Shown here in pieces: positions 27,766 to 43,122 of a stretch of DNA of 64,000 nt. The stretch is from Actinomycetota bacterium. GTDB taxonomy: Bacteria > Actinomycetota > Thermoleophilia > RBG-16-64-13. A model generated the notes under the pieces. That model was not told where the DNA came from and did no database searches. It saw only the letters and a program-made list of their open reading frames with translations. The stretch's first letter is position 1. Every line of letters begins with the position of its first letter. The translations under genes were made by a program, and so were the position numbers. Location of the stretch: contig JAHJSA010000023.1 in assembly GCA_018830645.1 (NCBI GenBank), positions 133,482-197,481 of the forward strand. Reading direction: 5' to 3'.

Positions 27766-28476
27766 CTACACCCCGGACGTGATCCTCTGGCAGATGCGCA
27801 CGCCCTCCATGGCGTCGGTGGTCCAGTAGTCAGCCCCCACGAACTCGCACACCCGCTCGTCGATCGTGCCTCCCCCGATCACGATAGGAAGCCGGCGGCC
27901 CGATTCTGCTGCTTCCTCATGCAGCAGCTCGATGGTGGTGCGCATGCTTTGGTACGAGGCCGACACCAGGCCCGAAAGCCCGATAACGTCGGGTTCGAAC
28001 GCGCGTGCCTCCTCCAGGAAGCGGGCGGGAGGGATATCGACGCCAAGGTCCGTGACCGTGAAGCCGAAGCTGCGGAGCGCCATCCGCACCATGTTCTTCC
28101 CGATGTTGTGGATGTCTCCGGCCACGGTGCCCAGAAGCACCTTGCCCGAGCCGGTGCCCGTCATCTCGACTTCAAGGCTGAGCTGGGAGACCGTCATCAC
28201 CTGCCGGAAGATCTCGCCCGCCATGATGAGACCCGCCAAGTAGACCTCTTGCCGCTCGTAGCGCTCGCCCACCTTCCGCATGCCGTCTTCGCACGCGTTG
28301 ATCACAGAGAGACCGCTGACCCCCTCCTCGAGCGCCCTTTCCACGAGCGCGAGCACCTGTTCATCATCCAGGGCCATCATGGCCATGGATAGAGCCTCCA
28401 AGACTTCCTCCCGGTCCGGGTCTCCGCATCCCGCCGCCGGCCTCTCCGAATCAGGGTGCATTGAATCAGGGTGCAT
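27766..28476 (-). CDS. Corrinoid-binding methyltransferase protein, cassette 1, GntR-linked copy
   Basis: 236 residues in the MtaC/MtbC-like layout: an N-terminal helical cap (about 25-105) and a B12-binding domain with the cobalt-ligating His in GDIHNIGK (about residue 124) and GGGTIDE. It carries a methyl group on a cob(I)amide. It ends with WTTDAMEGVRICQR, shared with the paralogue at 36934-37578 but not with the UroD-linked corrinoid proteins. It overlaps the GntR gene by 11 nt, so the two form a unit. A 15-bp duplication gives MHPDSMHPDS at the N-terminus. It may shuttle methyl groups or report methylation state to the regulator; the second idea is speculation. Confidence 0.88.
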   Translation of the reverse strand: MHPDSMHPDSERPAAGCGDPDREEVLEALSMAMMALDDEQVLALVERALEEGVSGLSVINACEDGMRKVGERYERQEVYLAGLIMAGEIFRQVMTVSQLSLEVEMTGTGSGKVLLGTVAGDIHNIGKNMVRMALRSFGFTVTDLGVDIPPARFLEEARAFEPDVIGLSGLVSASYQSMRTTIELLHEEAAESGRRLPIVIGGGTIDERVCEFVGADYWTTDAMEGVRICQRITSGV

Positions 28477-29317
28477 GCTCGCCCTTTCGCGTATCGCTCG
28501 GGGCCTGGTCGTCGACGTGCGGCCCGAGGTGAGTACTCAGCCTGAACTGGTCTGCGCGGCAGAGGAACCATCCCCAACTCACCGGCAGCCCGTCGAAATC
28601 GCTGAAGACGTGTTCCAAACAGAAGGCTGGAGCGCCCTGAGGCATGCGCAGCAACTCGGCCGCCCGAGCACCGAGACTCATGGCCTGGATGCTCAGTTCT
28701 CCACTCGGAAGAGCGGCCCCCACGGTGCCCCGCAACAGGCCCTCGAGCGATGTGATCTGCAGCTGCGCCTCGATCAAGGGCCTCGTCTCGTCATACACGA
28801 CGTGCTCCCTGTGGTACACGATGGGCGTGCCCTCCCGCAGGAGAAGGCGTTGCAGGTAGATGGTCCGGGTGCCGGGGGCGAGACGGAGAACATGGGCCAC
28901 TCTCTCCGTGGCCGGGGCAATGGAAGCCTCGAGCAGCTGCACGTGCACCGAATCGCCGGCGGCCCACTGATCGGTGACCTCTTGGAGGCGGAACACGGCC
29001 TCCCCCAGATCGAGAGATCGCACGAACGTGCCCTTCCCCTGAGTGGTCGAGACCAACCCACGGTCGAGCAGAATGCTGATGGCACGTCGGATCGTCATGG
29101 GACTCACGCCGAACTCCAGGCGGAGTTGCGCCTCCGTGGGGAGCTGACCACCGGGCCGGTAGATGCCGTGTGCGATCCGCGAGGTCAACGCGTTGACGAT
29201 GCGCTGGTATGCAGGTTCTCCTATGCGCCGCCCGCGCTTGGCCGATCGGGCAGCCGGCTTCTCTTTCGACACCGTCCGCCCTTCTCGGCGTGCGCTGCTG
29301 GATCCGTCCTCCGCCAT
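28466..29317 (-). CDS. GntR/UTRA (HutC-type) regulator, cassette 1
   Basis: About 283 residues from ATG 29317; GTG 29272 or TTG 29362 are alternatives, but the likely promoter -10 at 29372-29367 puts the TTG upstream of the RNA start. The N-terminal winged helix has EFGVSPMTIRRAISIL and TQGKGTFV; the C-terminal UTRA ligand domain includes LEHVFSDFDGLPVSWGW. It is closely related to the regulator at 37575-38324. It should control the divergent promoters in 29318-29653. The effector may be the methylated substrate. Confidence 0.9.
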   Translation of the reverse strand: MAEDGSSSARREGRTVSKEKPAARSAKRGRRIGEPAYQRIVNALTSRIAHGIYRPGGQLPTEAQLRLEFGVSPMTIRRAISILLDRGLVSTTQGKGTFVRSLDLGEAVFRLQEVTDQWAAGDSVHVQLLEASIAPATERVAHVLRLAPGTRTIYLQRLLLREGTPIVYHREHVVYDETRPLIEAQLQITSLEGLLRGTVGAALPSGELSIQAMSLGARAAELLRMPQGAPAFCLEHVFSDFDGLPVSWGWFLCRADQFRLSTHLGPHVDDQAPSDTRKGEHAP

Positions 29318-29366
29318 GATCGTTCGAAGCCGTCCCTTCCTCGTTCGGGTTCGATTCCGCAATATC

Positions 29367-29416
29367 TATATATGAACTACGCGGTGCTTGCGGATTTATC
29401 TAGACATATGTATCGT
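29367..29416. promoter_or_regulatory. Divergent promoter region, cassette 1
   Basis: Plus strand: TTGCGG (29388-29393), 17-nt spacer, TATCGT (29411-29416) as -35/-10 for the corrinoid gene. Minus strand: a TATATA -10 within TATATATGAA (29367-29376) for the regulator gene. The cassette 2 gap has the same TATATATGAA and a TTGCGC-N17-TAGGAT promoter. Inference from pattern only. Confidence 0.5.
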
Positions 29417-29653
29417 ACACCTATCGGGACAACCGGAAAAGCGGGAGAATCGGGGCGACCAGAAAGGCGGAAGCCGGCCGAACCGGCACGTGAGCGAGGT
29501 CATCCCTTCTCCACTCCCATCATCGCAGAACGACGACGGCGCCGAGAGGTCCATGACCGACGGAGTATCGCACGCCAGAGCACTTCCGGAATGGTAGCCG
29601 CAAGCCACGCAGAAGTCCGACGAAACCAAGGGGACGCGAAGGGAGCAGAGCGG
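29417..29653 (+). other. Long leader of the cassette 1 corrinoid gene
   Basis: About 230 nt lie between the predicted RNA start and ATG 29654, against about 80 nt in cassette 2. A small hairpin (GCCGG-N5-CCGGC near 29473-29487) is visible. I see no cobalamin riboswitch box and no small gene with a convincing start. It may hold regulatory RNA structure. Confidence 0.35.
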
Positions 29654-30289
29654 ATGGCACATGACCTGGTGGAAGCGTTGGTGCATATGAAGGAGAAGGA
29701 GGCCCTGAGTATCGTGGAGGTGAGCCTCGAGGGCGGTGGCGACCCCAACGACATCCTGGCGTCGTGCTCGGAGGCCATGCAGATCGTGGGCGAACGCTTC
29801 CAGGAAGGCAGCTACTTCCTGCCGGAGCTCATCATGTCCGGCGAGATGCTCAAGAAGATCGCAGCGATCCTCAAGCCTCACATGGCCACCCAGGTAGCTT
29901 CCGAGGCGAAGCTGGGCCGCGTGGTCTTGGGGACGGTCCGGGGAGACATCCACGACATCGGTAAGGACATCGTGGGCTTCGTTCTCGACGTGAACGGCTT
30001 CGAGGTCACCGATCTCGGCATCAACGTGCCGGAGCAGAAGTTCGTGGACGCCGTGCGCGACCTCTCCCCCGGTGTCCTCGCCCTCTCCGGGTTCCTCACC
30101 ATCGCGTTCGACACGATGAAGAGCACCATAGCAGCGTTGGAGGAAGCGGGTCTGCGCAACGGCCTGCGCGTGATCATCGGTGGCGGGCAGATCGACGAAA
30201 CGGTGCGGGCCTTCACCGGGGCCGACGCCTACGGGGCAGACGCGATGGCCGCCGTGGCGTACACCAAAGAGATGGCAGGGGCGAAGTAG
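29654..30289 (+). CDS. Corrinoid-binding methyltransferase protein, cassette 1, UroD-linked copy
   Basis: 211 residues. N-terminal cap (about 1-85) and B12-binding domain with the His ligand in GDIHDIGKD and GGGQIDE. It is the methyl carrier for the UroD-family enzyme encoded immediately downstream (TAG then ATG, no gap), the standard arrangement of substrate-methyltransferase and carrier. GGAG lies 8 nt before the ATG. Same length as the carrier at 38492-39127. Confidence 0.92.
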   Translation: MAHDLVEALVHMKEKEALSIVEVSLEGGGDPNDILASCSEAMQIVGERFQEGSYFLPELIMSGEMLKKIAAILKPHMATQVASEAKLGRVVLGTVRGDIHDIGKDIVGFVLDVNGFEVTDLGINVPEQKFVDAVRDLSPGVLALSGFLTIAFDTMKSTIAALEEAGLRNGLRVIIGGGQIDETVRAFTGADAYGADAMAAVAYTKEMAGAK

Positions 30290-31642
30290 ATGCCTGTCGC
30301 GGGCGAGAAGAGTTGGAACGACCTCTCCGGTCCGGAGCGACGCGCCATCCGGTTTGCTAAATGGTTGGAGCCGGAGGGTGTGACCTTCCGTGATGCCGAA
30401 GCGAAGGCGGCCTACAAACAGCGCGTCAGCAGACTCATCGACGCGGTCGAGCTTGAGAAGGCCCCCGATCGGGTGCCCGTACTCACCAAGATGGGTTTCT
30501 ACCCCGCGCACCGCGCGGGCCTCACGCCCTACGACGCCATGAACGACACAGACCGCGCTCTCGAAGCCTGGTCCCGTGCCACGATCGAACTCCAGCCCGA
30601 CGGCCTTATCAGCCCCCTGCACAACACCATGCCGGCCAAGGCCTTCGAGCTTCTCGATTACCGTTTGTACGACTGGCCCGGGCACAACCTGCCGAAGGAC
30701 GCGGGCTATCAGTACAACGAAGACGAGTACATGACGCCGGAGGAGTACGACCACCTGATCGAAGACCCATCCGATTTCCTCTGGCGCGTCTACCTGCCGC
30801 GCGTCGTGGGCGCCTACGAGGGGTTCAGCATCCTCTCCCCCGCCTACGACATGGTCGAGCTCCCCTTCAGCACGGCCCACATCGGCCCCTGGGGCGCACC
30901 TCACCAGAAGGATGGATTCGAGCGGCTGGCGGCGGCGGGCAGAGAGGTCGGGACCTGGGCCGAGAAGGTCTTCCCGATGATCGCGCAGATGCAGGGCGCC
31001 GGCTTCCCCGACTACTGGGGCTACGCGACGAAGGCCCCGTTCGACTTCATCGGCGACTCCCTCCGCGGCACGCGCGGCGTGATCGTCGACATGTTCAAGA
31101 AGCCCGAGAAGGTGATCGAGGCCTGTGAACGCCTGGCCCCGCTCATGGTGAGGTGGGCTCTCGCCCACACCACCGTCGACAGCGCTCCCGGTATCTTCAT
31201 CCCACTCCACAAGGGTGCCGACGGGTTCATGTCCGACGAGCAATTCCGCACCTTCTACTGGCCCAGCCTGAAGAAGGTGCTCCTGGGCCTGATCGACCAC
31301 GGGTTCGTGCCCTGGCTGTTCGCGGAGGGCGGCTACAACTCGAGACTCGAGGCGATCGCCGAGTTGCCCAAGGGCACGACCGTCTGGATGTTCGACAGGA
31401 CCGACATGGTCGAAGCGAAGAGGGTCATCGGCGGAACGGCCTGCATCCAGGGGAACGTTCCATTGTCGATGATGCACATGTCCACACCCGACGAAGTGAC
31501 CGCCTACTGCCGTGAGCTCATCAGGACCGCGGGCCACGGCGGTGGGTTCATCCTCGATGTGGGCGCGAACATGGAGTCTCCGAAGGAGGAGAACGTGGTC
31601 GCCATGATCCAGGCGGCGAAACAGTACGGTGCCTACTCCTGA
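30290..31642 (+). CDS. UroD-family corrinoid methyltransferase, cassette 1
   Basis: 450 residues. The core (about 55-445) is a uroporphyrinogen-decarboxylase fold, as in MtaA, MtbA, CmuA and the O-demethylase MtvB. It lacks the clear HxC...C zinc triad of MtaA: a His in IPLHKGAD and a Cys in GTACIQGN are candidates, but the position of the last Cys is DVGANM. A 55-residue N-terminal extension precedes the fold. It should move a methyl group between a substrate and the corrinoid carrier. The missing Cys argues against a thiol (coenzyme M-like) substrate. The true substrate is unknown. Confidence 0.85.
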   Translation: MPVAGEKSWNDLSGPERRAIRFAKWLEPEGVTFRDAEAKAAYKQRVSRLIDAVELEKAPDRVPVLTKMGFYPAHRAGLTPYDAMNDTDRALEAWSRATIELQPDGLISPLHNTMPAKAFELLDYRLYDWPGHNLPKDAGYQYNEDEYMTPEEYDHLIEDPSDFLWRVYLPRVVGAYEGFSILSPAYDMVELPFSTAHIGPWGAPHQKDGFERLAAAGREVGTWAEKVFPMIAQMQGAGFPDYWGYATKAPFDFIGDSLRGTRGVIVDMFKKPEKVIEACERLAPLMVRWALAHTTVDSAPGIFIPLHKGADGFMSDEQFRTFYWPSLKKVLLGLIDHGFVPWLFAEGGYNSRLEAIAELPKGTTVWMFDRTDMVEAKRVIGGTACIQGNVPLSMMHMSTPDEVTAYCRELIRTAGHGGGFILDVGANMESPKEENVVAMIQAAKQYGAYS

Positions 31643-31657
31643 CGAGCGATCCTCTCT

Positions 31658-31689
31658 GGCATGGGGCGGCCACGAGCCCGCCCCATGCC
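31658..31689 (+). terminator. Perfect 12-bp hairpin after the methyltransferase gene
   Basis: GGCATGGGGCGG (31658-31669), 8-nt loop, CCGCCCCATGCC (31678-31689). There is no T-tract, as is common in GC-rich actinobacteria. It lies in the 178-bp gap between the methyltransferase and the importer genes and may terminate or attenuate transcription between them. Confidence 0.7.
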
Positions 31690-31820
31690 GTAGGGATGCC
31701 CGAAACAGGCATAGGAGGTGACACGGGTCGAACAGGGGCCGCGCGGCAGCCGCGCAGATCCGAGTTCCCGGAAGTGTTTGGCGACAGGTTCTCGAAACGC
31801 AGGAGAGGGAGGAACACGAC

Positions 31821-33212
31821 ATGACGGACTCAGACAGCGATAAGGTGAAAAGGGTGCTTGCCCTAGACCCACTCAGCCGCCGCCAGTTCCTCAAGCGGGC
31901 GGGGCTGGCAGGCGCGGCGATCGGCTTCGGCGGCGCGATTGTCGGCTGCGGCGACAGCACCACCACGACGACCGCGGCGGAAGGCACAGCCACTTCCGCC
32001 ACCACGGCCGTCACCGTAGGCGAGGAGATGGGGCGCGAGGTCAAGGTGGGGTGGGTCACCATGACCACCGGGCCCCTGGCCAGCCTGAGCGAGCCCGATG
32101 ACTTCCTGCTGGCGCAGGCCAAGGCCGCCGTCGGCGACGGTCTCGTCATCAACGGCAAGAAACACCCCATCACGTGGGTGGTCAAGGATAGCCAGTCCGA
32201 CTCCAACCGGGCCGCTCAGGTCGCCGGCGACCTCATCACGGGCGACCAGGTAGACCTCATGATGACCGGCATGACGCCGATCGTCTGCAACCCCGTCGCC
32301 GACCAGTGTGAAGCCAACGGCATGCCGCTCGTCTCGTACGGCGCTCCCTGGCAGGCGTGGTTCTTCGGCCGGAACGGCGACCCCGCCGTCGGCTTCGAGT
32401 GGGCGTACCACTTCTTCTGGGGCGCCGAGGATATGATCGCCGTGTACACCGGTCTATGGGACATGTTCGAGACCAACAAGACCGTCGGTGTACTGTGGCC
32501 CAACGACCCGGACGGCCTCGCCATGGCCGACCCCGTCAACGGCTTCCCACCCGTGATGGGGGAAATGGGCTACAAGATCGTGGACCCAGGGCGCTACACG
32601 AACCTCACCGAGGACTACTCCAGCATCATCAGCCAGTTCAAGGCCGAGAACTGCGAGATCGTCACCGGACTCATGATCGCTCCCGACTTCCCCACCTTCT
32701 GGTCGCAGGCCCAGCAGCAGGGCTTCAACCCCAAGGCGGTCACGATGGGACGTGCCATCCTGGTTCGCCCGGATATGGAAGCAGTCGGCGATTCCGGCAA
32801 CGGGCTATGCACCGAAGCGTGGTGGGCGTCGACTCACCCCTTCACCTCATCCCTCACAGGCAACACCTGCATGGAACAGGCCAAGGCGTGGGAAGACGAG
32901 AAGGGCACAGGCTACAACGGCTCTCTCGGGCTCACCGGTGCGGCATTCGAGGTGGCCATCGACGCGCTGAAGCGCACCACCGACATCGACGACCCCGCCT
33001 CCATCAGGGACGCCGTCAAAGCCACCGACCTGCAGACCATCCTCGGGCCCATCAACTTCTCCACCGGACCCGTGCCCAACATCTCCAAGACCCCCCTCGT
33101 TGGTGGGCAGTGGCAGCAGGGCGGCGAGTGGCCCTGGAGCTTGGTCGTCGTGAACAACGACGCCTACCCGTCCATCCCGAAGAGCGGAGAGTTGATCCCG
33201 CTCGGCGGGTGA
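31821..33212 (+). CDS. Substrate-binding lipoprotein of the second Liv-type importer
   Basis: 463 residues with twin-arginine motif SRRQFLKRAG, lipobox IVGC and a Thr-rich linker, then a Peripla_BP_6 domain. It is a close paralogue of the first importer's binding protein. Encoded right after a methyltransferase, it probably binds the methylated substrate or its parent compound. GGGAGG precedes the ATG. The stop overlaps the LivF start (TGATG). Confidence 0.92.
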   Translation: MTDSDSDKVKRVLALDPLSRRQFLKRAGLAGAAIGFGGAIVGCGDSTTTTTAAEGTATSATTAVTVGEEMGREVKVGWVTMTTGPLASLSEPDDFLLAQAKAAVGDGLVINGKKHPITWVVKDSQSDSNRAAQVAGDLITGDQVDLMMTGMTPIVCNPVADQCEANGMPLVSYGAPWQAWFFGRNGDPAVGFEWAYHFFWGAEDMIAVYTGLWDMFETNKTVGVLWPNDPDGLAMADPVNGFPPVMGEMGYKIVDPGRYTNLTEDYSSIISQFKAENCEIVTGLMIAPDFPTFWSQAQQQGFNPKAVTMGRAILVRPDMEAVGDSGNGLCTEAWWASTHPFTSSLTGNTCMEQAKAWEDEKGTGYNGSLGLTGAAFEVAIDALKRTTDIDDPASIRDAVKATDLQTILGPINFSTGPVPNISKTPLVGGQWQQGGEWPWSLVVVNNDAYPSIPKSGELIPLGG

Positions 33213-34003
33213 TGCACGCCCACCCAGTAGAGGCTGCACCAGCAGCCGGTGGTCCGAACGCCTCCCCAGGCCCCCGGGGAGGCGTTCGGACGTCGCCGCT
33301 CGCCGAAGGCCTCCTCGAGGTCGAAGGCGTCTCCACCGGGTACGGGAGCTTCCGCGCGCTCTTCGACGTGAGCCTACATGTGGACGAAGGAGAGATCCTG
33401 GCCGTCATCGGGGCGAACGGGGCGGGCAAGTCCACGCTGCTCAAGACCATATGCGGACTTCTGCGCACGGAGGACAGTACGGTGCGCTTCGATGGTAGAC
33501 CGATCGGCACCCTTCCAGCTCACAAGCGCGTGGGTCTGGGGATATCGCTCGTCCCTGAGGGGCGCTTGGTGTTCCCCAGCCTCACGGTCCACGAGAACCT
33601 CCTCGTGGGCGGGCATTCCCGGCGGACCGGGCCCTGGTCCGTGAGCAAGGTCCGCGAGCTCTTCCCCTTGCTCGACCGACTTATGGACAAACAAGCCGCG
33701 CATCTCTCGGGGGGCGAGCAGCAGGCCCTGGCCATCGGTAGGGGCCTCATGGCCAACCCCCGGCTCCTGCTCCTCGACGAGGTGTCTCTGGGGCTGGCGC
33801 CTATCGTCGTGACCGAGTTGTACAAAGCCATCCCGAGGATAGTGGCCGAAGGCACCACCCTGATCATCGTGGAACAGGACATCGGTCAAGCCGTTGCCGT
33901 CGCCGACCGCATCGTCTGCCTACTTGAAGGGCGCGTGGTCTTGCAGGGACGACCCGACGAGGTGACGCGGGAACAGATTTCCGCAGCCTACTTCGGGATC
34001 TGA
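33212..34003 (+). CDS. livF: Branched-chain-type ABC ATPase, LivF-like, with N-terminal extension
   Basis: 263 residues from ATG 33212. Walker A GANGAGKST, signature LSGGEQQ and Walker B LLLDEVSLGLAP identify LivF. The first ~33 residues (His/Pro/Ala/Gly-rich) are absent from the paralogue at 12086-12793. The DNA for that extension forms a 16-bp perfect hairpin (33252-33291), so the extension may exist because an RNA structure sits inside the reading frame. No start codon lies between the hairpin and the conserved domain. No LivG gene is present in this operon. Confidence 0.88.
   Translation: MHAHPVEAAPAAGGPNASPGPRGGVRTSPLAEGLLEVEGVSTGYGSFRALFDVSLHVDEGEILAVIGANGAGKSTLLKTICGLLRTEDSTVRFDGRPIGTLPAHKRVGLGISLVPEGRLVFPSLTVHENLLVGGHSRRTGPWSVSKVRELFPLLDRLMDKQAAHLSGGEQQALAIGRGLMANPRLLLLDEVSLGLAPIVVTELYKAIPRIVAEGTTLIIVEQDIGQAVAVADRIVCLLEGRVVLQGRPDEVTREQISAAYFGI
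33252..33291 (+). promoter_or_regulatory. 16-bp perfect hairpin inside the start of livF
   Basis: Positions 33252-33267 pair perfectly with 33276-33291 around an 8-nt loop. It lies 40 nt past the stop of the binding-protein gene. In many importer operons a hairpin here stabilises the binding-protein mRNA and lowers downstream expression; here it is translated as part of LivF, which is unusual. Confidence 0.75.
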
Positions 34004-34004
34004 C

Positions 34005-34874
34005 GTGGCCTGGCTCAACGACGTCATCCAGGGGATACTTCTCGGCGGTCTCTATGCCCTGTTCGCCGCCGGGCTCTCCCTCATCTTCGGGGTCATGCGC
34101 TTGGTCAATCTGGCGCACGGGGACCTGAGCCTGCTGGCTGCCTACGCGGCGTTGTTGATCGTTGGTCCCCTCGACATCAACCCGTTCCTTTCCATCTTCC
34201 TGGTAGTGCTCCTGGTAGCAGTCTTCGGCTACATCCTTCAGCGCGGCTTCCTGAACTTCGCCCTGGAGGACGACCCCATGCCGACCATCCTGGCCACCTT
34301 CGGGCTCTCCATCGTGATCCAGAACCTGCTCCTTGAAGTGTTCTCTGCCAACAGCAAGGGGCTCGACGCTGGAACCATCGAGACCCAGGCGCTGAAGATC
34401 ACCGATCAGATCTCGATCGGCTGGTTCCCGCTCATCACCCTTGTGACCTCGGTGGTCGTGCTGTTCGCGCTCCAGCTGTACCTCAACCGCACCAGGATGG
34501 GCCGCGCCTTCCGAGCCACCTCGGACAACCAAGAAGCCGCGCAGTTGATGGGCATCGACAACCGCCACCTCTACGGTCTGGCCATGGCCATCGCCCTGGG
34601 CATCGTCGCCATCGCCGGGGTGTTCCTCGGCATCCGCACCACGTTCAACCCGAGCGTGGGCCCCGCGCGGCTGATCTTCGCGTATGAGGCGGTGATCATC
34701 GGAGGCCTGGGCTCCGTGTGGGGCACGTTGGTGGGCGGCATGCTGCTCGGTGTGGCACAGACTATCGGTGCTCATCTCGACCCAGGCTGGGGCGTGCTCG
34801 CCGGGCACCTGCTGTTCCTCGCCGTCTTAGTGCTGCGGCCGCGGGGCCTCTTCGCGAAGCAGGTGCAGGCATGA
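34005..34874 (+). CDS. livH: Branched-chain-type ABC permease, LivH-like
   Basis: 289 residues, about eight membrane segments, with GLYALFAAGLSLIFGVMR, NLAHGDLSLLAAY and GGLGSVWGTLVGG. GTG start 1 nt after the livF stop and without a strong ribosome site, so it is probably coupled to livF translation. Paralogue of 11223-12089. Confidence 0.9.
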   Translation: MAWLNDVIQGILLGGLYALFAAGLSLIFGVMRLVNLAHGDLSLLAAYAALLIVGPLDINPFLSIFLVVLLVAVFGYILQRGFLNFALEDDPMPTILATFGLSIVIQNLLLEVFSANSKGLDAGTIETQALKITDQISIGWFPLITLVTSVVVLFALQLYLNRTRMGRAFRATSDNQEAAQLMGIDNRHLYGLAMAIALGIVAIAGVFLGIRTTFNPSVGPARLIFAYEAVIIGGLGSVWGTLVGGMLLGVAQTIGAHLDPGWGVLAGHLLFLAVLVLRPRGLFAKQVQA

Positions 34875-34908
34875 GGGCGACTCCGCGCACCGGGCGGAGG
34901 GCGGCGCG

Positions 34909-35991
34909 ATGAGCGGCCGGCAGCTTCGCGTGGAGCGCCAGACACGCGCCAGCCGCGTCGGCGTCCCCGCGGCCATCATCATTCTGGCAATCGCGGTCAG
35001 CCTGCCCCTTTGGGGCTCCTCGAACCTGATGAAGACGGGAGTCACGTTCCTCACCCTGGTCGCCTTGGCGCAGATGTGGAACCTGCTGGCCGGATACGCC
35101 GGCCTCCTCTCCGTGGGTCAGCAGGCCTTCGTTGGCATCGGGGCCTACGGCGTGTGGGCACTCGCCGAGAAGGGGGGAGTGCACCCCTTCGTCGCGGTGC
35201 CGATCGCCGGGCTCATCGCCGCGGCGTTCGCCCTGCCCACCGCCGGGCTGACGTTCCGACTTCGCGGCGGGTACTTCGCCGTGGGCACGTGGGTGGTCGC
35301 AGAGGTGTTCCGGCTCCTGGTGATCAACATCGCCTGGCTCGGTGGAGGATCGGGCGGCTCCATCACCTCGGTGGGACGCATTGCTCGGGACACGCGGGAG
35401 GCGGCGGTCTACTGGCTCGCGCTCGGCGTGGCCGTGGGCGCGGTTGTGCTCGTGTACCTGATCCTTCGTTCAAAGGGGGGCCTGGCTTTGGCCTCCATCC
35501 GTGACGACCAAACAGCGGCGGCGGGCCTCGGCGTGAACACGGTGCGGTCGAAGCTCTGGGTGTACGTGCTCTCGGCTTTCGGCTGCGGCACTACGGGAGC
35601 CGTGATCTACCTCAACCTGCTGACGGTTCAACCTGAGGGAGCATTCAGTCTCAACTGGAGCGCGCTCATGATCTTCACCGTGGTCATAGGCGGAGTGGGC
35701 ACCATCGAGGGCCCGATCCTCGGCGCCTTGATCTTCTTCGGCCTGCAGCAGGTGCTCTCGGACTACGGGTCCTGGTACCTCGTCCTGATCGGCACGATCG
35801 CCGCCACGTCGGCGGTCTTCGCGAAGCAGGGCCTCTGGGGGATCCTGAACCGTCGCTGGACACTCGAGCTGTTCCCGGTGCGGCGCCGAGTCGACCTCGA
35901 CTCCGACGCAGACCCTCCCGCTACAGAACCAGATGCGCAGCCGACCGACCGCCCGAAAGGGAGCGCGAGCGCTCCCTCTGAGGACGGCTAG
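34909..35991 (+). CDS. livM: Branched-chain-type ABC permease, LivM-like
   Basis: 360 residues, about ten membrane segments, with GYAGLLSVGQQAFVGIGAY and GGVGTIEGPILGA. A hydrophilic C-terminal tail rich in Asp/Pro/Thr extends beyond the last helix. Paralogue of the permease at 10170-11186. It should pair with the LivH-like protein. Confidence 0.9.
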   Translation: MSGRQLRVERQTRASRVGVPAAIIILAIAVSLPLWGSSNLMKTGVTFLTLVALAQMWNLLAGYAGLLSVGQQAFVGIGAYGVWALAEKGGVHPFVAVPIAGLIAAAFALPTAGLTFRLRGGYFAVGTWVVAEVFRLLVINIAWLGGGSGGSITSVGRIARDTREAAVYWLALGVAVGAVVLVYLILRSKGGLALASIRDDQTAAAGLGVNTVRSKLWVYVLSAFGCGTTGAVIYLNLLTVQPEGAFSLNWSALMIFTVVIGGVGTIEGPILGALIFFGLQQVLSDYGSWYLVLIGTIAATSAVFAKQGLWGILNRRWTLELFPVRRRVDLDSDADPPATEPDAQPTDRPKGSASAPSEDG

Positions 35992-36041
35992 GCCGGTCGT
36001 TCCCCCCCACCCGTACCACACGACCAGGAAAGGTTGATCAC

Positions 36042-36890
36042 ATGGACACGAGAGTAGCTTCCGCGACACGCGAGGTGATCATCGGCCACGACAGGCCCAC
36101 GGTTCTCATCGGCGAACGCATCAACCCCACGGGGAAGAAAGCTCTGGCCGATGCGTTGCGCGCCGGTGACCTCGACGTGGTGCGAGAGGAGGCACGCCGG
36201 CAGGTTGCCGCCGGCGCCGACATCCTCGATGTGAACGTGGGGGCCACGGGCGTCGATGAGAGGATCATGCTGCCGTTGGCGGTGCAGGCGGTGGCCGAGG
36301 TCGTCGACGTGCCGCTCTGCCTGGACAGCCGCAACGTAGAGGCGCTGGCCGCGGCGCTGGAAGTGTGCCCCGGCCGACCCATCATCAACTCCGTCACTGG
36401 GGAGGACGAGTCCCTCGAGCAGGTGCTGGCTTTGGCGAAACGATTCGGCGCTCCCGTCATCGGGCTCACCCTCGACGACACCGGCATCCCCTCCGATCCT
36501 GCCCGGCGGGTGGAGATCGCTCACCTGATCGTGGAGCGGGCGGCCGCCCTTGGAATCCCTCGAGAAGACGTGATCATCGATTGCCTCACGCTCACCCTGG
36601 GTGCGAACACCAAGGCCGGTCTGGGCACCTTGGAGGCGGTGCGCCGGGTGAGAGACGAGCTGGGCGTGAACCAGACCCAGGGAGCCAGCAACATATCTCA
36701 TGGGCTGCCAAACCGGCCGTACCTCACGGGGGCGTATCTGGCCATCGCCATCGAGGCGGGGCTCACCTGCCCCACGGTGGACGTGGCTCAGGTGCGCTTG
36801 GCCGTGCTCTCCGCCGATCTGATCCTGGGGCGCGACGACTTCGCCCTACGCTACATAGCCGCGTTCCGGGAGATGTCGGCAGGCGGCTGA
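36042..36890 (+). CDS. Pterin-binding (methyltetrahydrofolate) methyltransferase, cassette 1
   Basis: 282 residues of the AcsE/MetH/MtvA pterin-binding TIM barrel: GERINPTGKK near the N-terminus, DILDVNVGA, PLCLDSRN, INSVTGE, and the Asn-rich SNISHGLPNR. It transfers methyl between the corrinoid carrier and tetrahydrofolate, which closes the pathway from substrate to one-carbon metabolism. AGGAAAGG precedes the ATG. It lies 50 nt after livM and converges with cassette 2's minus arm. Confidence 0.9.
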   Translation: MDTRVASATREVIIGHDRPTVLIGERINPTGKKALADALRAGDLDVVREEARRQVAAGADILDVNVGATGVDERIMLPLAVQAVAEVVDVPLCLDSRNVEALAAALEVCPGRPIINSVTGEDESLEQVLALAKRFGAPVIGLTLDDTGIPSDPARRVEIAHLIVERAAALGIPREDVIIDCLTLTLGANTKAGLGTLEAVRRVRDELGVNQTQGASNISHGLPNRPYLTGAYLAIAIEAGLTCPTVDVAQVRLAVLSADLILGRDDFALRYIAAFREMSAGG

Positions 36891-36933
36891 GGTCGCAGCT
36901 GGGTTCTGGAGCAAGGCTCCCGGCGGGGACAGC

Positions 36934-37578
36934 TCAGTCGACCCTCGTCAGCCGCTGACAAATCCGGACCCCTTCCATGGCGTCCGTGGTCCACGAGTCC
37001 GCCCCTACGAAGCGGCGCACCTCTTCGTCGATGAGTCCTCCGCCGATGACCACCGGCACGTGCATCGCCGCGTCGGCCTCCGCGCCGCGCAGGAGTCGCA
37101 CTGTGTCTTTCATGCTCTGGTAGGAGGCGGTCACGAGGCCGGAGAGGCCGACGACGTCCGGCCTGGTCGCGATGACGAGTTCCAGGAAGCGGGCCGGCGG
37201 GACGTCGACGCCAAGGTCGTCCACGGTGAAACCGAAGCTCCGAAGAGCGGTCGCGACGATGTTCTTCCCGATATCGTGTATGTCGCCGGCGACCGTGCCC
37301 AACAAGACCCTGCCGGACTCCTCGCCATGCAGTTCCGCTTCCAGCCCCGGTTGCACCAGCTCGAGCACCTCGCGGAAGATCTCTCCCGCCAGGATGAGGC
37401 CTGAGAGGTAGTATTCGTGCCGCTCGTACCGCTCGCCCACCACCCGCATGGCCTGCTCGCAGGCCTGTAGCAGCACGAGGGACTGGGTGCCCTCGGCGAG
37501 CGCTTCCCGAGTGAGCTCAAGGGTCCGCTCCTCCTCGAGCTCGATGAGCGCCTCCTTCATCGACTCCAACCGGGTCAC
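36934..37578 (-). CDS. Corrinoid-binding methyltransferase protein, cassette 2, GntR-linked copy
   Basis: 214 residues from GTG 37578, which overlaps the GntR stop (GTGA) and has GGAGG 6 nt upstream; an ATG at 37560 has poorer spacing. Cap domain, then B12-binding domain with His in GDIHDIGKN and GGGLIDE, ending with the WTTDAMEGVRICQR tail shared with 27766-28476. Coupled translation with the regulator is firm from the sequence. Role as for its cassette 1 counterpart. Confidence 0.9.
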   Translation of the reverse strand: MTRLESMKEALIELEEERTLELTREALAEGTQSLVLLQACEQAMRVVGERYERHEYYLSGLILAGEIFREVLELVQPGLEAELHGEESGRVLLGTVAGDIHDIGKNIVATALRSFGFTVDDLGVDVPPARFLELVIATRPDVVGLSGLVTASYQSMKDTVRLLRGAEADAAMHVPVVIGGGLIDEEVRRFVGADSWTTDAMEGVRICQRLTRVD

Positions 37579-38324
37579 TCCATGCCTCCCCGTTCTGCTC
37601 GACGAGTTCCCAGGTGTGTCCGCAGCAAGAACGAATCGGCTCGACACAGGAACCAGCCCCAGCTGACAGGGCGTCCCGTGAAGTCGTGGAACGCGTGCTC
37701 CAGACGGAAGGCCGCCGCTCCTTCGGGCTGGTCGAGGAGAGCCGCTTCCGCGGCGGCGAGGTTCACCACGCGAACGGTGAGTTCACCTTCCGGAAAGCCC
37801 TCCCCCCCAGCCCCTTGGAGCAGACCCTCCAGGGATGTGATCTGCAGTTGAGACTCCACCAGGGGGCGACGAGCGTCGAACACCACGTACTCTGTGTGGT
37901 ACATCATCGGCTTCTCGTCCTTCAGGAGAAGTCGACGCAGGAACACCGCCCGCTCACCCACTGGGATGCCGAGCGTCTCGGCCACGCGTTCGTCCGCCCG
38001 CACAGTGGAAGCGGCAAGCAGACGCACGTCCACCGAGTCGTCCTGCCACCGATCGGTGAACTGACGGAGCTTGAAGCTCGCTTCACCCAGCTCGAGGGCG
38101 CGCACGAAGGTGCCTCGGCCCTGCTCAGCCGAAAGGAGTCCGCGGTCTGAGAGTCTCGCGAGCGCCCGCCGGAGCGTCATCGGACTCACGCCGAACTCCT
38201 TGCACAGCTGAGGCTCGGGGGGCAACTGCTCCCCTGGACGATACGCGCCTCGAGCGATACGCTCGCCTAGAGCAGCCTCGATCCGCAGGTACACCGGGGT
38301 CTTCGTGCTCGTACTGTCACCCAA
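37575..38324 (-). CDS. GntR/UTRA regulator, cassette 2
   Basis: 249 residues from TTG 38324, with AGGTGG 7 nt upstream. Winged helix with EFGVSPMTLRRALARL and EQGRGTFV; UTRA domain with LEHAFHDFTGRPVSWGW. Close paralogue of the cassette 1 regulator, which points to duplication of the whole unit. It should control the divergent promoters at 38363-38405. Confidence 0.92.
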   Translation of the reverse strand: MGDSTSTKTPVYLRIEAALGERIARGAYRPGEQLPPEPQLCKEFGVSPMTLRRALARLSDRGLLSAEQGRGTFVRALELGEASFKLRQFTDRWQDDSVDVRLLAASTVRADERVAETLGIPVGERAVFLRRLLLKDEKPMMYHTEYVVFDARRPLVESQLQITSLEGLLQGAGGEGFPEGELTVRVVNLAAAEAALLDQPEGAAAFRLEHAFHDFTGRPVSWGWFLCRADSFLLRTHLGTRRAERGGME

Positions 38325-38362
38325 TCCGATACCACCTGTCCGAAGAGAACAATCCTAATTCT

Positions 38363-38405
38363 TATATATGAATGTGTTGCGCAGTCTTCGACATGATTGT
38401 AGGAT
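38363..38405. promoter_or_regulatory. Divergent promoter region, cassette 2
   Basis: Plus strand: TTGCGC (38377-38382), 17-nt spacer, TAGGAT (38400-38405). Minus strand: TATATA -10 inside TATATATGAA (38363-38372). The layout matches the cassette 1 gap. Probably the operator region for the GntR protein. Confidence 0.5.
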
Positions 38406-38491
38406 ATCGGCAGTGGCACCGCAAGGATCACGACTGTTGTAGGCCGATCGGCCCGTGTCGCGCGGGCGGCGGAAGACCAAGGAGGGAACGG

Positions 38492-39127
38492 TTGAGCGTC
38501 ACGAGCACGTTGGCACAGGCCCTGGGGGATCTAGACGAAGCCGCCGTCAAGTCGCTGGTGGAGGGGGCCCTCAGCGCGAAGCAGGATCCCCTGGAGATCG
38601 TGCAAGAACTCCAGGACGGCATGGAGATCGTCGGAAAAAAGTTCGAGGCAGACGAGTACTTCCTCTCCGAGTTGATATTCGCCGCTGAGATATTCAAGCA
38701 GGCGAACGCCCCGCTCGGCGAGAGCCTACAGAAGGCGGTCAAGGAGACCCTCGGCACTATCGTGTTGGGCACGGTCAAGAACGACATCCACGACTTCGGT
38801 AAGGACATCGTAGGAATGGTCCTCACCTCGAACGGTATCAAGGTCGTCGATCTGGGCGTCAACGTGGAGCATCAGGCCTTCGTGGACGCCATCCGTGAGC
38901 ACAAACCTCAACTCGTGGGCTTCAGTTGTCTTTTGACCACGGTATTCGAAGACATGAAGGACGCAGTGGCGGCTATCGAGGCCGCGGGCGTGCGAGATCA
39001 GGTCAAGGTGATGATAGGCGGTGGTCCCGTCGACCAGTCGGTTGCCGACTACGTGGGTGCGGACGCCTACTGTCTGAACGCTCAGGTGGCCGTGGAGACT
39101 GCCAAGAAGTACCTGAGGGGGAACTAG
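38492..39127 (+). CDS. Corrinoid-binding methyltransferase protein, cassette 2, UroD-linked copy
   Basis: 211 residues from TTG 38492, fixed by GGAGGG at 38481-38486 (5-nt spacing). Helical cap and B12-binding domain with the His ligand in NDIHDFGKD and GGGPVDQ. It is the likely methyl carrier for the UroD-family enzyme that starts 2 nt later. Confidence 0.92.
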   Translation: MSVTSTLAQALGDLDEAAVKSLVEGALSAKQDPLEIVQELQDGMEIVGKKFEADEYFLSELIFAAEIFKQANAPLGESLQKAVKETLGTIVLGTVKNDIHDFGKDIVGMVLTSNGIKVVDLGVNVEHQAFVDAIREHKPQLVGFSCLLTTVFEDMKDAVAAIEAAGVRDQVKVMIGGGPVDQSVADYVGADAYCLNAQVAVETAKKYLRGN

Positions 39128-39129
39128 AT

Positions 39130-40242
39130 ATGACGACGACGCAAGAGCTACTTCAGCAACGGAAGGACCGTATCGCGGCCGCCATCGCCTTGGAGAAGCC
39201 GGACCGCGTCCCGGTGGTGCCACTCGGCGACGCTTTCGCCGCCAACATGATGGGAGTCAAGATCTCCGACTTCTGCACGAAGCCTGAGGTCGCCTACCCC
39301 ACGATGATCGATGCCTTCACACAACTGGGCGACCTTGACGGCATCCAGCACGCGAGCTACAACGTGTCCGCGCTCAGCACCATCTGGCTCTCCAAGGTCA
39401 AATGGCCGGGCCGAGACCTGCCCGACAACGAGCTCTGGCAGGTGGAAGAACTCGAACTCATGACTACCGACGACTACGATGTGATCGCCGAGAAGGGTTT
39501 CGGAGAGTGGCTCGGCGGCTTCATCCCTCGGGCGGACCTGGGCGAGGAGTTCCAGCTGTTCCGAGAGGGCTGGGTCCCCACCCTCCCCGCGGCCATGAAG
39601 GCTTGGGAGGCGGTCGGTATCCCGGTCCTGTCTCCCGTGATCTTCACCATACCCTACGAGTACTTCTGCGGAGGACGCTCCATGCGCGCCTTCGTGCTCG
39701 ACCTCTACCGCATGCCGGATAAGGTGGAGGCCGCCATGCAGGCGACCATGCCCTTCATCAAGGAGACCGCCCGCCAGGTGATCCGCGGGCTCGGCGTATC
39801 CGGGTGTTGGCTCGGTGGCTGGCGCTCGGCGAGCGAGTTCCTCTCCCCTAAGCTCTGGGAACGGTTCGTGCTGCCGTACTACAAGGAGCTGGCCGCGGTG
39901 GTCATCGAGGAAGGCATCACGCCCGTCTTCCATTTCGACTCCAACTGGACGCGCGACCTCTCCTACTTCCTCGACTTCCCTAAGGCGAAGTGCGTGATCT
40001 CCACCGACAGCATGACCGACATCTACAAGGCGAAGGAAGTACTCGGCGGCCACATGTGCGTCATGGGCGACGTGTCCCCCAGCATGCTCACGCTTGGCAC
40101 TCCCGAGAAGGTGAAAGAGTACTCGCGGCGCCTGGTGAACGACCTCGGGCCCACCGGTTTCATCTTGGCACAGGGATGTTGCATCCCGCCGGACGCAAAA
40201 CCCGACAACGTGCGGGCCATGATCGAGGCGGTGCACGGGTAA
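39130..40242 (+). CDS. UroD-family corrinoid methyltransferase, cassette 2
   Basis: 370 residues over a single UroD-like fold. Candidate zinc or active-site residues are the His in VFHFDSNW and the Cys pair in QGCCIPPDA near the C-terminus, a feature missing in the cassette 1 enzyme. It lacks that enzyme's N-terminal extension. The two enzymes are distant paralogues and probably accept different methyl donors. Followed by a strong hairpin. Confidence 0.87.
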   Translation: MTTTQELLQQRKDRIAAAIALEKPDRVPVVPLGDAFAANMMGVKISDFCTKPEVAYPTMIDAFTQLGDLDGIQHASYNVSALSTIWLSKVKWPGRDLPDNELWQVEELELMTTDDYDVIAEKGFGEWLGGFIPRADLGEEFQLFREGWVPTLPAAMKAWEAVGIPVLSPVIFTIPYEYFCGGRSMRAFVLDLYRMPDKVEAAMQATMPFIKETARQVIRGLGVSGCWLGGWRSASEFLSPKLWERFVLPYYKELAAVVIEEGITPVFHFDSNWTRDLSYFLDFPKAKCVISTDSMTDIYKAKEVLGGHMCVMGDVSPSMLTLGTPEKVKEYSRRLVNDLGPTGFILAQGCCIPPDAKPDNVRAMIEAVHG

Positions 40243-40314
40243 CAGCGGCCATCAGCCCGGCGTGCGGTCGCTCCGTCCGCGAGCTGCGCCGCCACGCCAC
40301 GCGAGCTCTCCGCC

Positions 40315-40349
40315 TGCCGGATGCCGGGGATCATCCCCGGCATCCGGCA
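40315..40349 (+). terminator. 16-bp perfect hairpin after the cassette 2 methyltransferase
   Basis: 40315-40330 pairs with 40334-40349 around a TCA loop. The stem is perfect and mostly GC; there is no clear T-tract. It separates the carrier/methyltransferase pair from the CobW-like operon and probably ends or attenuates transcription. Confidence 0.75.
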
Positions 40350-40427
40350 TCGCTCTCGATCACCATCCGGCCGGTCAGCCATAGCAGGCGTCGCCCACCA
40401 CATGCGGGTGACATGATAGGAACTACG

Positions 40428-41072
40428 ATGACGTCGTCCAACACCGCGGAGCCGCCTCCCACCCCCATGCGCCTGCTCGTGTTCGCGGGCTTCCTTGGGT
40501 CGGGCAAGACCTCGCTGATCCTGCCGCTTGCCACCCTCCTGGCCGCGGGCGGCATCCGTACCTGCTTCATCGTGAATGAAGTGGGTGACGTGGGCATCGA
40601 TCAACAGGTGATGCGCGATGGAGGGCTCGAGGTGTACGAGATCACCGCCGGGTGCATCTGCTGCCAGCTGACCGTGGACCTGGTGACGACGCTCGGTGAG
40701 ATCGAGACTCGGATCCATCCTGATGTGGTGATAATCGAAGCGTCAGGGGTCGCCACCCCGACCGGTATCCATTCGGCCCTCGATCACTACCAGGGAACCC
40801 CGCTCGCCGCGATCCACACGGTGACAGTCGTGGACCCTACGCGCATCGAGGCGCTGCTCGCGGTGATGACACCGCTTATCGAGGGGCAGATCATCGGAGC
40901 CGACGAGATCCTCATCACGAAGATGGACGAAGCCACCGACGACGAGGTGGCGCTGGCCCTCGACGCCGTTGCGCGCCTGCATCCGCAGGCTCCGGTCCAC
41001 ACTGTCTCGGTGCACGACCGTGCCGGCTTGGCACCGGCGCTTAGCGCGCTCGCGGAGGCGGTCCGACCATGA
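40428..41072 (+). CDS. CobW/P47K-family GTPase
   Basis: 214 residues from ATG 40428, chosen for an AGGA 6 nt upstream over ATG 40413. P-loop GFLGSGKTS, a GCICC Cys motif (metal-binding CxCC of the family) and the nucleotide motif TKMD. CobW-like proteins are metallochaperones or help insert metals, some of them linked to cobalamin. It lacks the usual C-terminal CobW domain. The location suggests help in corrinoid cofactor loading or activation, which is inference. Confidence 0.88.
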   Translation: MTSSNTAEPPPTPMRLLVFAGFLGSGKTSLILPLATLLAAGGIRTCFIVNEVGDVGIDQQVMRDGGLEVYEITAGCICCQLTVDLVTTLGEIETRIHPDVVIIEASGVATPTGIHSALDHYQGTPLAAIHTVTVVDPTRIEALLAVMTPLIEGQIIGADEILITKMDEATDDEVALALDAVARLHPQAPVHTVSVHDRAGLAPALSALAEAVRP

Positions 41073-41482
41073 CGGCTCCGGACCACCTCGACCCGTACAC
41101 CGAGCGACTCCGCCTCCGAGGACGCCTCGAGCAGCCCCCGGATCTCGTCGCCGGGCTACTGGAAGACGTCGCCCGCCGCTGCGCGGAAGGGGGCGCGTCG
41201 CTCATCGGACACGTGAAGGCCCACGCGCGCACCGCCCAAGGCTCCTTCCATTGCAACCTCGCCTCGATCCGTTCGGGCGCCCATTCCGCGGGACCCCTCA
41301 CCGTGCACCCCGCTCCGGCCGATTCGATGGACCTCGATCTGGCCGTACTCGTGTATGGCCTGCCGCGCGAGACGGTCGCGGCGCTCGTTGAGGACGCCGT
41401 CGAGGGACTGCGGGAGCACGGTGTCACCGAATGGGTCTGCGCTGCCCACGCCCCCACCGACGACCATCAGCCCCAGGAGTAG
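41069..41482 (+). CDS. Unknown 137-residue protein in the methyltransferase operon
   Basis: The start overlaps the CobW-like gene stop (ATGA), and the next gene follows after 6 nt, so it is a true operon member. It has a central HVKAHART segment, one Cys in SFHCNLAS and a second near the C-terminus, and no membrane segment. I do not recognise the family. Its position between a metallochaperone-like GTPase and a methyltransferase suggests a role in the methyl-transfer system. Confidence 0.65.
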   Translation: MTAPDHLDPYTERLRLRGRLEQPPDLVAGLLEDVARRCAEGGASLIGHVKAHARTAQGSFHCNLASIRSGAHSAGPLTVHPAPADSMDLDLAVLVYGLPRETVAALVEDAVEGLREHGVTEWVCAAHAPTDDHQPQE

Positions 41483-41488
41483 CCCCAC

Positions 41489-42325
41489 ATGGAGATCATC
41501 GCAGAGAAGATCAACGGCACGCGCAAGGAGGTGGGGGCCGCCGTCGTGGGCCGCGACACCGCTTTCATCCAGCAGCTGGCCCGGCTGCAGGCCGCGGCCG
41601 GCGCCACCTACATCGACGTGAACGCCGGCACCGGCAAGACGGAGCCCGAGGACCTCGTCTGGCTCACGGAGACGGTGCAGGCGGCGGTGGACCTGCCCCT
41701 CTGCCTCGACAGCGCCAATCCTGCCGCCCTCGGAGCCGCCCTCCCCCGTGCCGCGAAGCTGCCCCTCATCAACTCCATCAGCGGCGAGCGGAGTCGCCTG
41801 GAGGGCGTACTTCCGCTGGTCGCGGAGTACGGCACGCCGGTCATCGCCCTCGCCGCCGACGACAACGGCATCAGCAAGGAACTCGACAGACGCATCGAAG
41901 TGGTGCGCGCCGTGATCGCGGCCATCCGCGACGCCGGAGTGGCGGACGGGCTCGTCTACGTGGATCCGCTGGTCATGCCACTCGCCGGGTTCCACCAGAG
42001 CGGTGCGTTGGCGCTCGCGGCGATGCGAGCTGTGAAGGCCGAGTTCCCTGAGGTCAAGCTGGCGGTGGGTCTCAGCAATCTCTCCTACGGCCTGCCGGCA
42101 CGCGGCCTTATCAACCGGGTCTTCCTGGCGTTCGCGGTCGAGGCGGGGCTCGACGCCGTATTGGTCGACCCCAACGACCGCGCCGTGATGCAGGAGCTGG
42201 TCGCGGCCGAACTCGTTCTCGGCCGCGACCCGTTCTGCCGTCAATACACGCAGTCGTACCGCGCCGGGCGCTTCGGTTTCGAGGGCACCGCGTCTGCGGC
42301 GCCGGCCCCTCAGGCGCAGCACTAA
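41489..42325 (+). CDS. Pterin-binding methyltransferase, cassette 2
   Basis: 278 residues of the methyltetrahydrofolate-methyltransferase barrel: EKINGTRKEV near the start, TYIDVNAG, PLCLDSAN, INSISGE, and GLSNLSYGLPAR. It should pass methyl from the corrinoid carrier to tetrahydrofolate. Paralogue of 36042-36890. The stop overlaps the DUF1638 start (TAATG). Confidence 0.9.
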   Translation: MEIIAEKINGTRKEVGAAVVGRDTAFIQQLARLQAAAGATYIDVNAGTGKTEPEDLVWLTETVQAAVDLPLCLDSANPAALGAALPRAAKLPLINSISGERSRLEGVLPLVAEYGTPVIALAADDNGISKELDRRIEVVRAVIAAIRDAGVADGLVYVDPLVMPLAGFHQSGALALAAMRAVKAEFPEVKLAVGLSNLSYGLPARGLINRVFLAFAVEAGLDAVLVDPNDRAVMQELVAAELVLGRDPFCRQYTQSYRAGRFGFEGTASAAPAPQAQH

Positions 42326-43122
42326 TGGCGATCGCCGCCATCATCGCCTGCGAGATGATAGAGGACGAGACCCTCCTCGCCGTGGACCGAGCGTACCCGG
42401 AAGGCGGCAGTCCCCCGATTGTGTGGATCGAGAGCTCTCTGCACGAGCGGCCGGAGAAGCTGCAGTCCGCGCTGCTCGCGGTCATCGAGGCGCTCGACGT
42501 GGGGGCGCGCGCCCGGGAGCCGGTGATGGTGCCCAGCGTGCGGGTGAGCGAGGAGTCGGCCGATTTCGGGAAGGGAGGTGGAACCCCCGCCCGCCGCGAG
42601 GAACTCGTGCAGGTTGGGCCCCAGGGGGACATCCTCCTCGGCTTCGGCTACTGCGGCGGTGGGCTCAAGCAGCTGGTGTCGCACGAGCGGCGCCTGGTTT
42701 TCCCCCGCGTTGACGACTGCATCTCGCTGTTCCTCGACGGCGGCTACGACCGGGGACGGGCCACCCGCGACCCCCACTCCTACTACCTCACCAAGGGCTG
42801 GTTCTGTCACCAGGGCGCGATGACCGATGGCTACGACGCGTGGGTGGAACGCTACGGCCTCGAGCGCGCCGCCCAAATCCGCCGATTGATGTTCGCCAAC
42901 TACGAGCGCATCTCGCTCATCGACACAGGCGCGTACTCCATCGACGAGTGGCTCCCACACAGCGAAACGCGGGCCACCGAATTGGAGCTCAGCCACGAGA
43001 TCGTGCCGGGATCGGTGCGCCTGCTCGAGAGGCTCTTCGCCGGGGATTGGGACGAGGACGTCATCGTTCTGGAGCCTGGGCAGCCCATCGGCATCGAGCA
43101 CCTGCTCTGCTTCGAAGCGTGA
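42325..43122 (+). CDS. DUF1638 family protein
   Basis: 265 residues with the family's GYCGGGLKQL, PRVDDCISLFL and YYLTKGWF segments. The conserved Cys residues suggest metal or corrinoid contact. DUF1638 genes are often near corrinoid methyltransferases in anaerobes, but their function is not known to me. It is the last gene of the CobW-like operon. Confidence 0.85.
   Translation: MAIAAIIACEMIEDETLLAVDRAYPEGGSPPIVWIESSLHERPEKLQSALLAVIEALDVGARAREPVMVPSVRVSEESADFGKGGGTPARREELVQVGPQGDILLGFGYCGGGLKQLVSHERRLVFPRVDDCISLFLDGGYDRGRATRDPHSYYLTKGWFCHQGAMTDGYDAWVERYGLERAAQIRRLMFANYERISLIDTGAYSIDEWLPHSETRATELELSHEIVPGSVRLLERLFAGDWDEDVIVLEPGQPIGIEHLLCFEA

Follow-up and report, generated by a model that had tools for sequence, protein, structure and literature searches.

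The stretch of DNA analysed here, in the following called the window, comprises 64,000 nucleotides (nt) on contig C11 (JAHJSA010000023.1) of an Actinomycetota bacterium (GCA_018830645.1), whose genome of 3.87 Mb contains 30 B12-binding matches in total. Between positions 27766 and 43122 lie two cassettes for corrinoid-dependent methyl transfer, each with two corrinoid proteins. We use R for the GntR/UTRA regulator, A for the corrinoid protein encoded on the strand of R, B for the corrinoid protein on the opposite strand, U for the UroD-family methyltransferase and P for the pterin methyltransferase, followed by 1 or 2 for the cassette. A first-pass annotation of the sequence had described these genes as a duplicated methyl-transfer module with two carriers per cassette. 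The cassettes are real and conserved, but their interest differs from this description: of the two corrinoid proteins, one is tied to the regulator. The genes and putative operators are arranged as follows.

27766–28476 (−), corrinoid protein A1, regulator-linked; Pfam B12-binding 84.4 and B12-binding_2 51.7 bits; start uncertain
28466–29272 (−), GntR/UTRA regulator R1; Pfam GntR 68.2 and UTRA 75.7 bits (read from 29362); start chosen by codon score
29393–29410, putative operator 1, GATTTATCTAGACATATG; motif model score 13.6
29654–30289 (+), corrinoid carrier B1, 211 amino acids; both B12 domains; 67% identical to its L016 relative
30290–31642 (+), UroD-family methyltransferase U1; Pfam URO-D 72.8 bits; CdmB match with E=1.7e-41
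31821–33212 (+), periplasmic binding protein of a Liv-type ABC transporter; Pfam Peripla_BP_6 118.1 bits
33380–34003 (+), LivF-type ATPase, from the sequence, named by family knowledge; the true start may be upstream
34005–34874 (+), LivH-type permease, from the sequence, named by family knowledge
34909–35991 (+), LivM-type permease, from the sequence, named by family knowledge
36042–36890 (+), pterin-binding methyltransferase P1 (methyl-corrinoid:tetrahydrofolate); Pterin_bind 102.7 bits; NF005719 262.3 bits, cut-off 259
36934–37578 (−), corrinoid protein A2, regulator-linked; both B12 domains; AlphaFold predicted local distance difference test (pLDDT) 93.0, predicted template modelling score (pTM) 0.77
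37575–38324 (−), GntR/UTRA regulator R2; Pfam GntR 78.5 and UTRA 74.7 bits, over cut-off
38359–38376, putative operator 2, a weak match, TTCTTATATATGAATGTG; score 10.1, under the scan threshold of 10.5
38492–39127 (+), corrinoid carrier B2, 211 amino acids; both B12 domains; placed by the tree
39130–40242 (+), UroD-family methyltransferase U2; Pfam URO-D 125.3 bits (read from 39133); CdmB match with E=6.9e-20
40428–41072 (+), CobW-family GTPase; Pfam cobW 121.3 bits
41069–41482 (+), small protein without a Pfam family; similar genes in the related cassettes L091 and L095
41489–42325 (+), pterin-binding methyltransferase P2; NF005719 301.6 bits, cut-off 259
42325–43122 (+), DUF1638 protein; Pfam DUF1638 109.1 bits; recurs in other such loci

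All genes named in the first-pass annotation were found at their positions by Pfam and NCBIfam matches, and the layout it gave, R and A on one strand, B and U on the other, plus P, is correct for both cassettes. R1 and R2 carry a GntR helix-turn-helix and a UTRA domain, and A1, A2, B1 and B2 both B12-binding domains, in each case over the Pfam cut-offs. As had been noticed, WTTDAMEGVRICQR is common to A1 and A2 and VSWGWF to R1 and R2, and the plus-strand carriers B1 and B2 are both 211 amino acids long, given the starts chosen here. The UroD-family methyltransferase I adjoins a two-domain corrinoid protein in both cassettes (U1/B1 and U2/B2). Transfer of the methyl group to tetrahydrofolate (THF), also proposed before, is probable, with P1 and P2 scoring over the NF005719 cut-off. 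Four ABC transporter genes lie between U1 and P1; in this Liv-type stretch (31821–35991) we saw one ATPase gene and no second one (LivG). Between U2 and P2 follow the CobW gene and the small protein. The genes A2 and R2 overlap by 4 nt (GTGA), and in-frame starts of A1 are located 11 nt inside the end of R1 and 4 nt after its stop codon; R and A are therefore probably translated together. Control by a riboswitch was rejected because the window has no Rfam match at gathering scores.

We searched the source genome and 60 relatives (61 genomes) with three R queries, yielding 38 members above 220 bits, with the next match at 112 bits. A phylum sample of 396 genomes provided 13 more at 150–260 bits, and a search of named contigs another two loci, L025 (labelled Chloroflexi) and L026 (labelled delta proteobacterium), resulting in 53 R loci that share descent, so that these and the following counts are not independent. 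In 50 of the 53, A lies directly downstream of R on the same strand (49 plus L078, whose corrinoid protein was labelled B at first and assigned to A after the tree). The nearest A start is found within 30 nt of the R stop codon in 44 of these 50, and the genes overlap by 1 or 4 nt in 14. The three R without A lie at a contig edge (L095), before a corrinoid adenosyltransferase (L079, 6253–7631) and 288 nt ahead of a gene for para-aminobenzoate synthesis (L093, 3–2677; product by family knowledge), the last two hinting at a wider B12/folate regulon.

Looking from the side of A, 29 of 30 matches above 214 bits in the 61 genomes adjoin R, and the remaining one, from the L095 genome, lies at the very start of a contig; below 214 bits the scores of A and B overlap. 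Two further phylum samples, centred on the genomes of L025 (350 genomes) and L026 (345 genomes), yielded 23 loci with R above 210 bits, 22 of them with a corrinoid gene downstream; without L139 and L140, which duplicate L025 and L026, the count is 20 of 21. The sole miss (L144/L202) is located beside folD-fhs. There, in the Chloroflexi-centred sample, an R without A faces folD-fhs, and a pterin-binding protein is encoded further downstream (L202:1557–7730). Among GntR relatives below 185 bits, just one of 38 loci (L189) has a corrinoid gene downstream, and this gene is partial. The cut-offs of 220, 214, 210 and 185 bits were set at gaps seen in the results. In the phylum-sample scans no more than 6 or 7 first-look candidates were scored for each genome, and rows lacking a locus, including two above 210 bits (G1016), stand outside the phylum-sample counts. 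Judging by their labels, most genomes are presumably metagenome-assembled. A candidate GntR-corrinoid fusion in L110 was discarded, the long open frame having no corrinoid domain and the corrinoid protein being the next gene.

The linkage of R and A is also seen in their evolutionary distances, which correlate with r=0.93 over 49 pairs, compared with at most 0.14 in 500 permutations. For the 27 loci with all four genes the values are 0.83 (R-A), 0.79 (B-U), 0.74 (R-B), 0.59 (A-B), 0.56 (A-U) and 0.56 (R-U), all of them inflated by shared species history.

To place the corrinoid proteins, we built a phylogenetic tree of 91 sequences; pieces shorter than 150 residues were dropped, including the A of L100, L101, L104 and L127. 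One half of the tree consists of the 35 main-set A and the corrinoid protein of L004, whose gene lies behind that of a distant GntR. A second set of 11 A constitutes a separate clade without a firm placement. Most of the A proteins thus represent a distinct lineage. They also differ from B at one residue, in the following called the cap position, located where the fourth cap helix begins (residue 60 of A2; helix 58–82 in the AlphaFold model). It would lie near Phe708/Leu715 of Escherichia coli MetH, which shield the upper cobalamin face. Gly or Ala occupies the cap position in all 46 A, whereas all 35 B, and likewise the 10 other corrinoid proteins of the source genome in the tree, have Glu, Asp or Gln. 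Among the loci fetched later, 20 of 21 new A have Gly or Ala (22 of 23 if the duplicates of L025 and L026 are included), the exception being the partial gene of L189, and all 15 B have Glu, Asp or Gln. The corrinoid-binding motif DxHxxG is kept in 46 of 46 A and in 21 of 23 A of the later loci. The L004 protein carries Asp at this site and was therefore not counted as A, although it is at the root of the tree half formed by A. Such distant GntR-corrinoid pairs are located beside a pterin methyltransferase and near MttB-type genes in L004 (5428–6972), L086 and L087 (genomes G000, G001 and G005).

The genes that R-A faces vary. In 22 of the 53 loci a corrinoid or UroD gene is divergent and there are no genes of the one-carbon (C1) pathway (counts from the locus listing), and in 13 U or P lies downstream of A on the same strand, with L132 belonging to both groups. 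In eight loci (L094, L096–L102), R-A faces fhs-fchA-folD-metV-metF-lpd genes, partly cut by contig ends; three of these loci (L096, L098, L100) extend to B. In L094, Pfam assigned a formate-THF ligase, a cyclodeaminase, a THF dehydrogenase, both parts of methylene-THF reductase and a pyridine-nucleotide oxidoreductase. A putative formate-dehydrogenase-like protein comes after R-A in L096, L097 and L102 (domains checked for L102). In the tree, A1 groups with the A of the folate C1 loci (support 0.86), and one type of A therefore goes with different target operons. Of the 20 further loci, nine have B or U in divergent orientation, some with P and DUF1638. The divergent layout is shared by other genomes and is thus no product of chance.

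Within the source genome, identity between copies 1 and 2 amounts to 60% for R, 63% for A, 45% for B, 30% for U and 40% for P. The carrier B1 is 67% identical to a third carrier of the genome, encoded in L016, versus 45% to B2, and U1 is 52% identical to the UroD protein of L016 versus 30% to U2. The tree places B1 and B2 in different groups. No R or A was found within the 13-kb L016 stretch. A simple tandem duplication was rejected in view of the unequal identities and the closeness of L016 to B1 and U1. From the identities of R and A against those of B and U, together with L016, it follows that the R-A unit was duplicated, whereas carrier and enzyme stem from different lineages. The cassettes are thus paralogous as first described, but duplication of the module as a whole is not supported. 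The first-pass annotation had held that parts grouping with unrelated neighbours, or a divergent layout found nowhere else, would speak against it; the former was observed partly for B and U, and neither for R-A. A third R-A pair of the source genome is located near the end of contig C93 (L012, order R-A-U). In G001, a genome of the same genus, a single stretch (L089) has the order R-A-U-B-P. Since the B-P pair with which contig C32 ends (L010) has the neighbours seen in L089, C93 and C32 probably adjoin. The corrinoid protein at the contig end in L010 (6485–7237) has an N-terminal run of DGLR repeats, which may be an assembly or repeat effect.

De novo motif discovery upstream of R gave a palindrome resembling ACTTGTATATACAAGT, with a score above 7 in 45 of 51 stretches. 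Its likelihood gain was 307.9 versus 66.4–88.1 in 10 control sets of other upstream stretches, consistent with a conserved element. Scanning 733 kb at a score threshold of 10.5 returned 49 sites upstream of R and 12 elsewhere. Four of these 12 precede B or U genes (L090, L133, L012, L089), two overlapping ones lie before A in L092, one precedes an acyl-CoA-ligase/TRAP-like transporter operon by the third cassette (L089:266, with its counterpart at L010:610), and five are without placement. An extra operator-like site of the source genome (L005:10981, score 10.6) is not near R. The fhs gene of the source genome (L138) has no operator with a score above 7 within 4.7 kb.

The sequences show the linkage of R and A, a lineage of A distinct from the carriers, the retained cobalamin-binding motif, the changed residue at the cap position and the conserved palindrome. 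From these results we consider it rather probable that A is a cobalamin-binding co-regulator, that is, a sensor, of R, and that B is the working carrier. Based on family knowledge, U would move a methyl group onto B, and P would pass it from B to THF. The palindrome, in the promoter region that R shares with the divergent genes, would be the site where R binds. In its corrinoid-loaded form, A would contact R and report the state of the corrinoid or methyl pool, thereby switching the cassette and, elsewhere, the folate C1 operon. The signal would lie in the ligand or redox state of A's corrinoid, methyl-Co(III) versus Co(I)/Co(II), and the switch may in this way read the methyl or B12 status of the cell. 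A more specific version, which we propose tentatively, is that A is a former carrier, methylated or demethylated by the pathway itself, that relays the corrinoid methyl load to the GntR regulator in three phyla by label. Conceivably, then, the switch for demethylation and folate C1 oxidation might sense the pathway's own intermediate.

Several observations weigh against A as a co-regulator. As modelled, A keeps the carrier fold. By Foldseek E-value, the A2 model matched the carrier-like 4jgi and MetH ahead of AerR (7te2, rank 50) and CarH, and 4jgi is also the best PDB sequence match of A. The second A set falls in the tree half with the carriers (support 0.24). In an alignment with five solved proteins we read the cap residue as Asp, Glu, His, Phe and Phe; solved carriers may thus show His or Phe there, and an acid or Gln is not universal. 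Tyr at the position that presumably resembles MetH Phe708 is not exclusive to A, as it occurs in 8 of 35 B and is absent from 4 of 23 later A. Operators were significant by shuffling in only 12 of the 20 new loci, and in the window the first (29393–29410) is clear and the second (38359–38376) weak. In L074 and L081, U is divergent and no B lies within the stretch examined, so A could serve U there. Finally, the order is R-A-U-B-P in L089, with A directly before U, and probably also in L012 plus L010; the linkage of A to R is thus accompanied in some loci by adjacency to U. The last points, together with the solved relative 4jgi, both cobalamin-binding domains and the kept DxHxxG, would also fit A as a second metabolic carrier, along the lines of the first-pass annotation, for example from U to P or for a second donor, whose position behind R is functionally meaningless, and clusters with two carriers are described (PMC9768040). 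We regard this as unlikely, since A stands behind R in 50 of 53 loci, its best matches adjoin R in 29 of 30 cases, the A-U correlation of 0.56 is below those of R-A (0.83) and B-U (0.79), the cap residue of B is missing, and A accompanies R at the folate C1 operon. The linkage to R, the cap, the separation of the main-set A from B in the tree and the folate C1 loci also speak against two equivalent carriers per cassette.

UTRA-type domains usually bind small ligands, and since R1 and R2 both have one over the cut-off, a small molecule may be bound by R alone, another point against a sensor role of A. In such a case A would serve the operon as a sink or for feedback, with no direct contact to R. 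This is improbable in light of the strong R-A distance correlation and the persistence of the pair over different target operons. A protein that held corrinoid in store for B, handed it on or maintained its reduced state would be expected beside B or an activase and not beside a regulator, and the R-A pairing holds in both search directions. We therefore give little credence to A as such a cofactor handler, linked to R by joint expression only, although it would agree with the kept cobalamin-binding motif, with CobW in cassette 2 and with the R lacking A that precedes a corrinoid adenosyltransferase in L079. These alternatives still deserve serious consideration, since A seems capable of corrinoid binding and, in two loci, U has no B nearby.

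To our knowledge, little is known about how anaerobes sense methyl donors and match demethylases to C1 flow. In the open-access literature searched, mostly at the level of titles, we found no GntR-corrinoid pair. If a corrinoid protein is indeed the dedicated partner of a GntR regulator, this would explain the second corrinoid protein of the cassettes, and annotators would stop counting A as a carrier. The cap-residue signature combined with the operator would then predict regulons, which is directly testable.

The enzymes are of known kinds, and the R-A pair would be a new form of B12-based regulation. In having a methyltransferase I, a corrinoid protein and a methyltransferase II, B-U-P resembles CdmBCA, Mto and MtvABC. 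The solved protein closest to U1 and U2 is CdmB, and because of this relationship to U1, methyl halides join methoxyaromatics as candidate donors. CdmB belongs to the chloromethane dehalogenating system CdmBCA of Acetobacterium dehalogenans, for which one corrinoid protein is reported (PMC13222342). For the Mto operon of Methermicoccus, one corrinoid protein is likewise reported, along with an unspecified transcriptional regulator (PMC8630106). In the cassettes described here, in contrast, a second corrinoid protein goes with the regulator. That known systems have one carrier each, as stated initially, is nevertheless too strong: the glycine betaine cluster of strain DCMF has two corrinoid proteins, as here, but each MtgC is listed beside an MtgB (PMC9768040), whereas one of the two goes with the regulator in our cassettes.

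Further likeness is found among cobalamin-dependent regulators. The NCBIfam CarH model matched A1 and A2 at 34 bits, far below its cut-off of 400, with no B1 or B2 match listed. Besides this weak match and a fold match, CarH/LitR share with the proposed role of A the use of a cobalamin-binding domain in transcription control. In that family, however, the domain is fused to a MerR-type DNA-binding domain, whereas A is a separate protein. The gene for AerR lies next to that of its transcription factor, and A shares this trait in 50 of 53 loci. AerR also has a fold like that of the A2 model (7te2). In Rhodobacter, AerR is reported to be a free-standing cobalamin-binding protein that directly contacts the transcription factor CrtJ and acts with it as a light sensor on photosystem genes (PMC6199135). 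Here, the partner is of the GntR/UTRA type, A is of the methyltransferase-carrier type, the neighbours are C1 genes, and the contact between R and A is a predicted one. Most likely, A works with R as AerR does with CrtJ.

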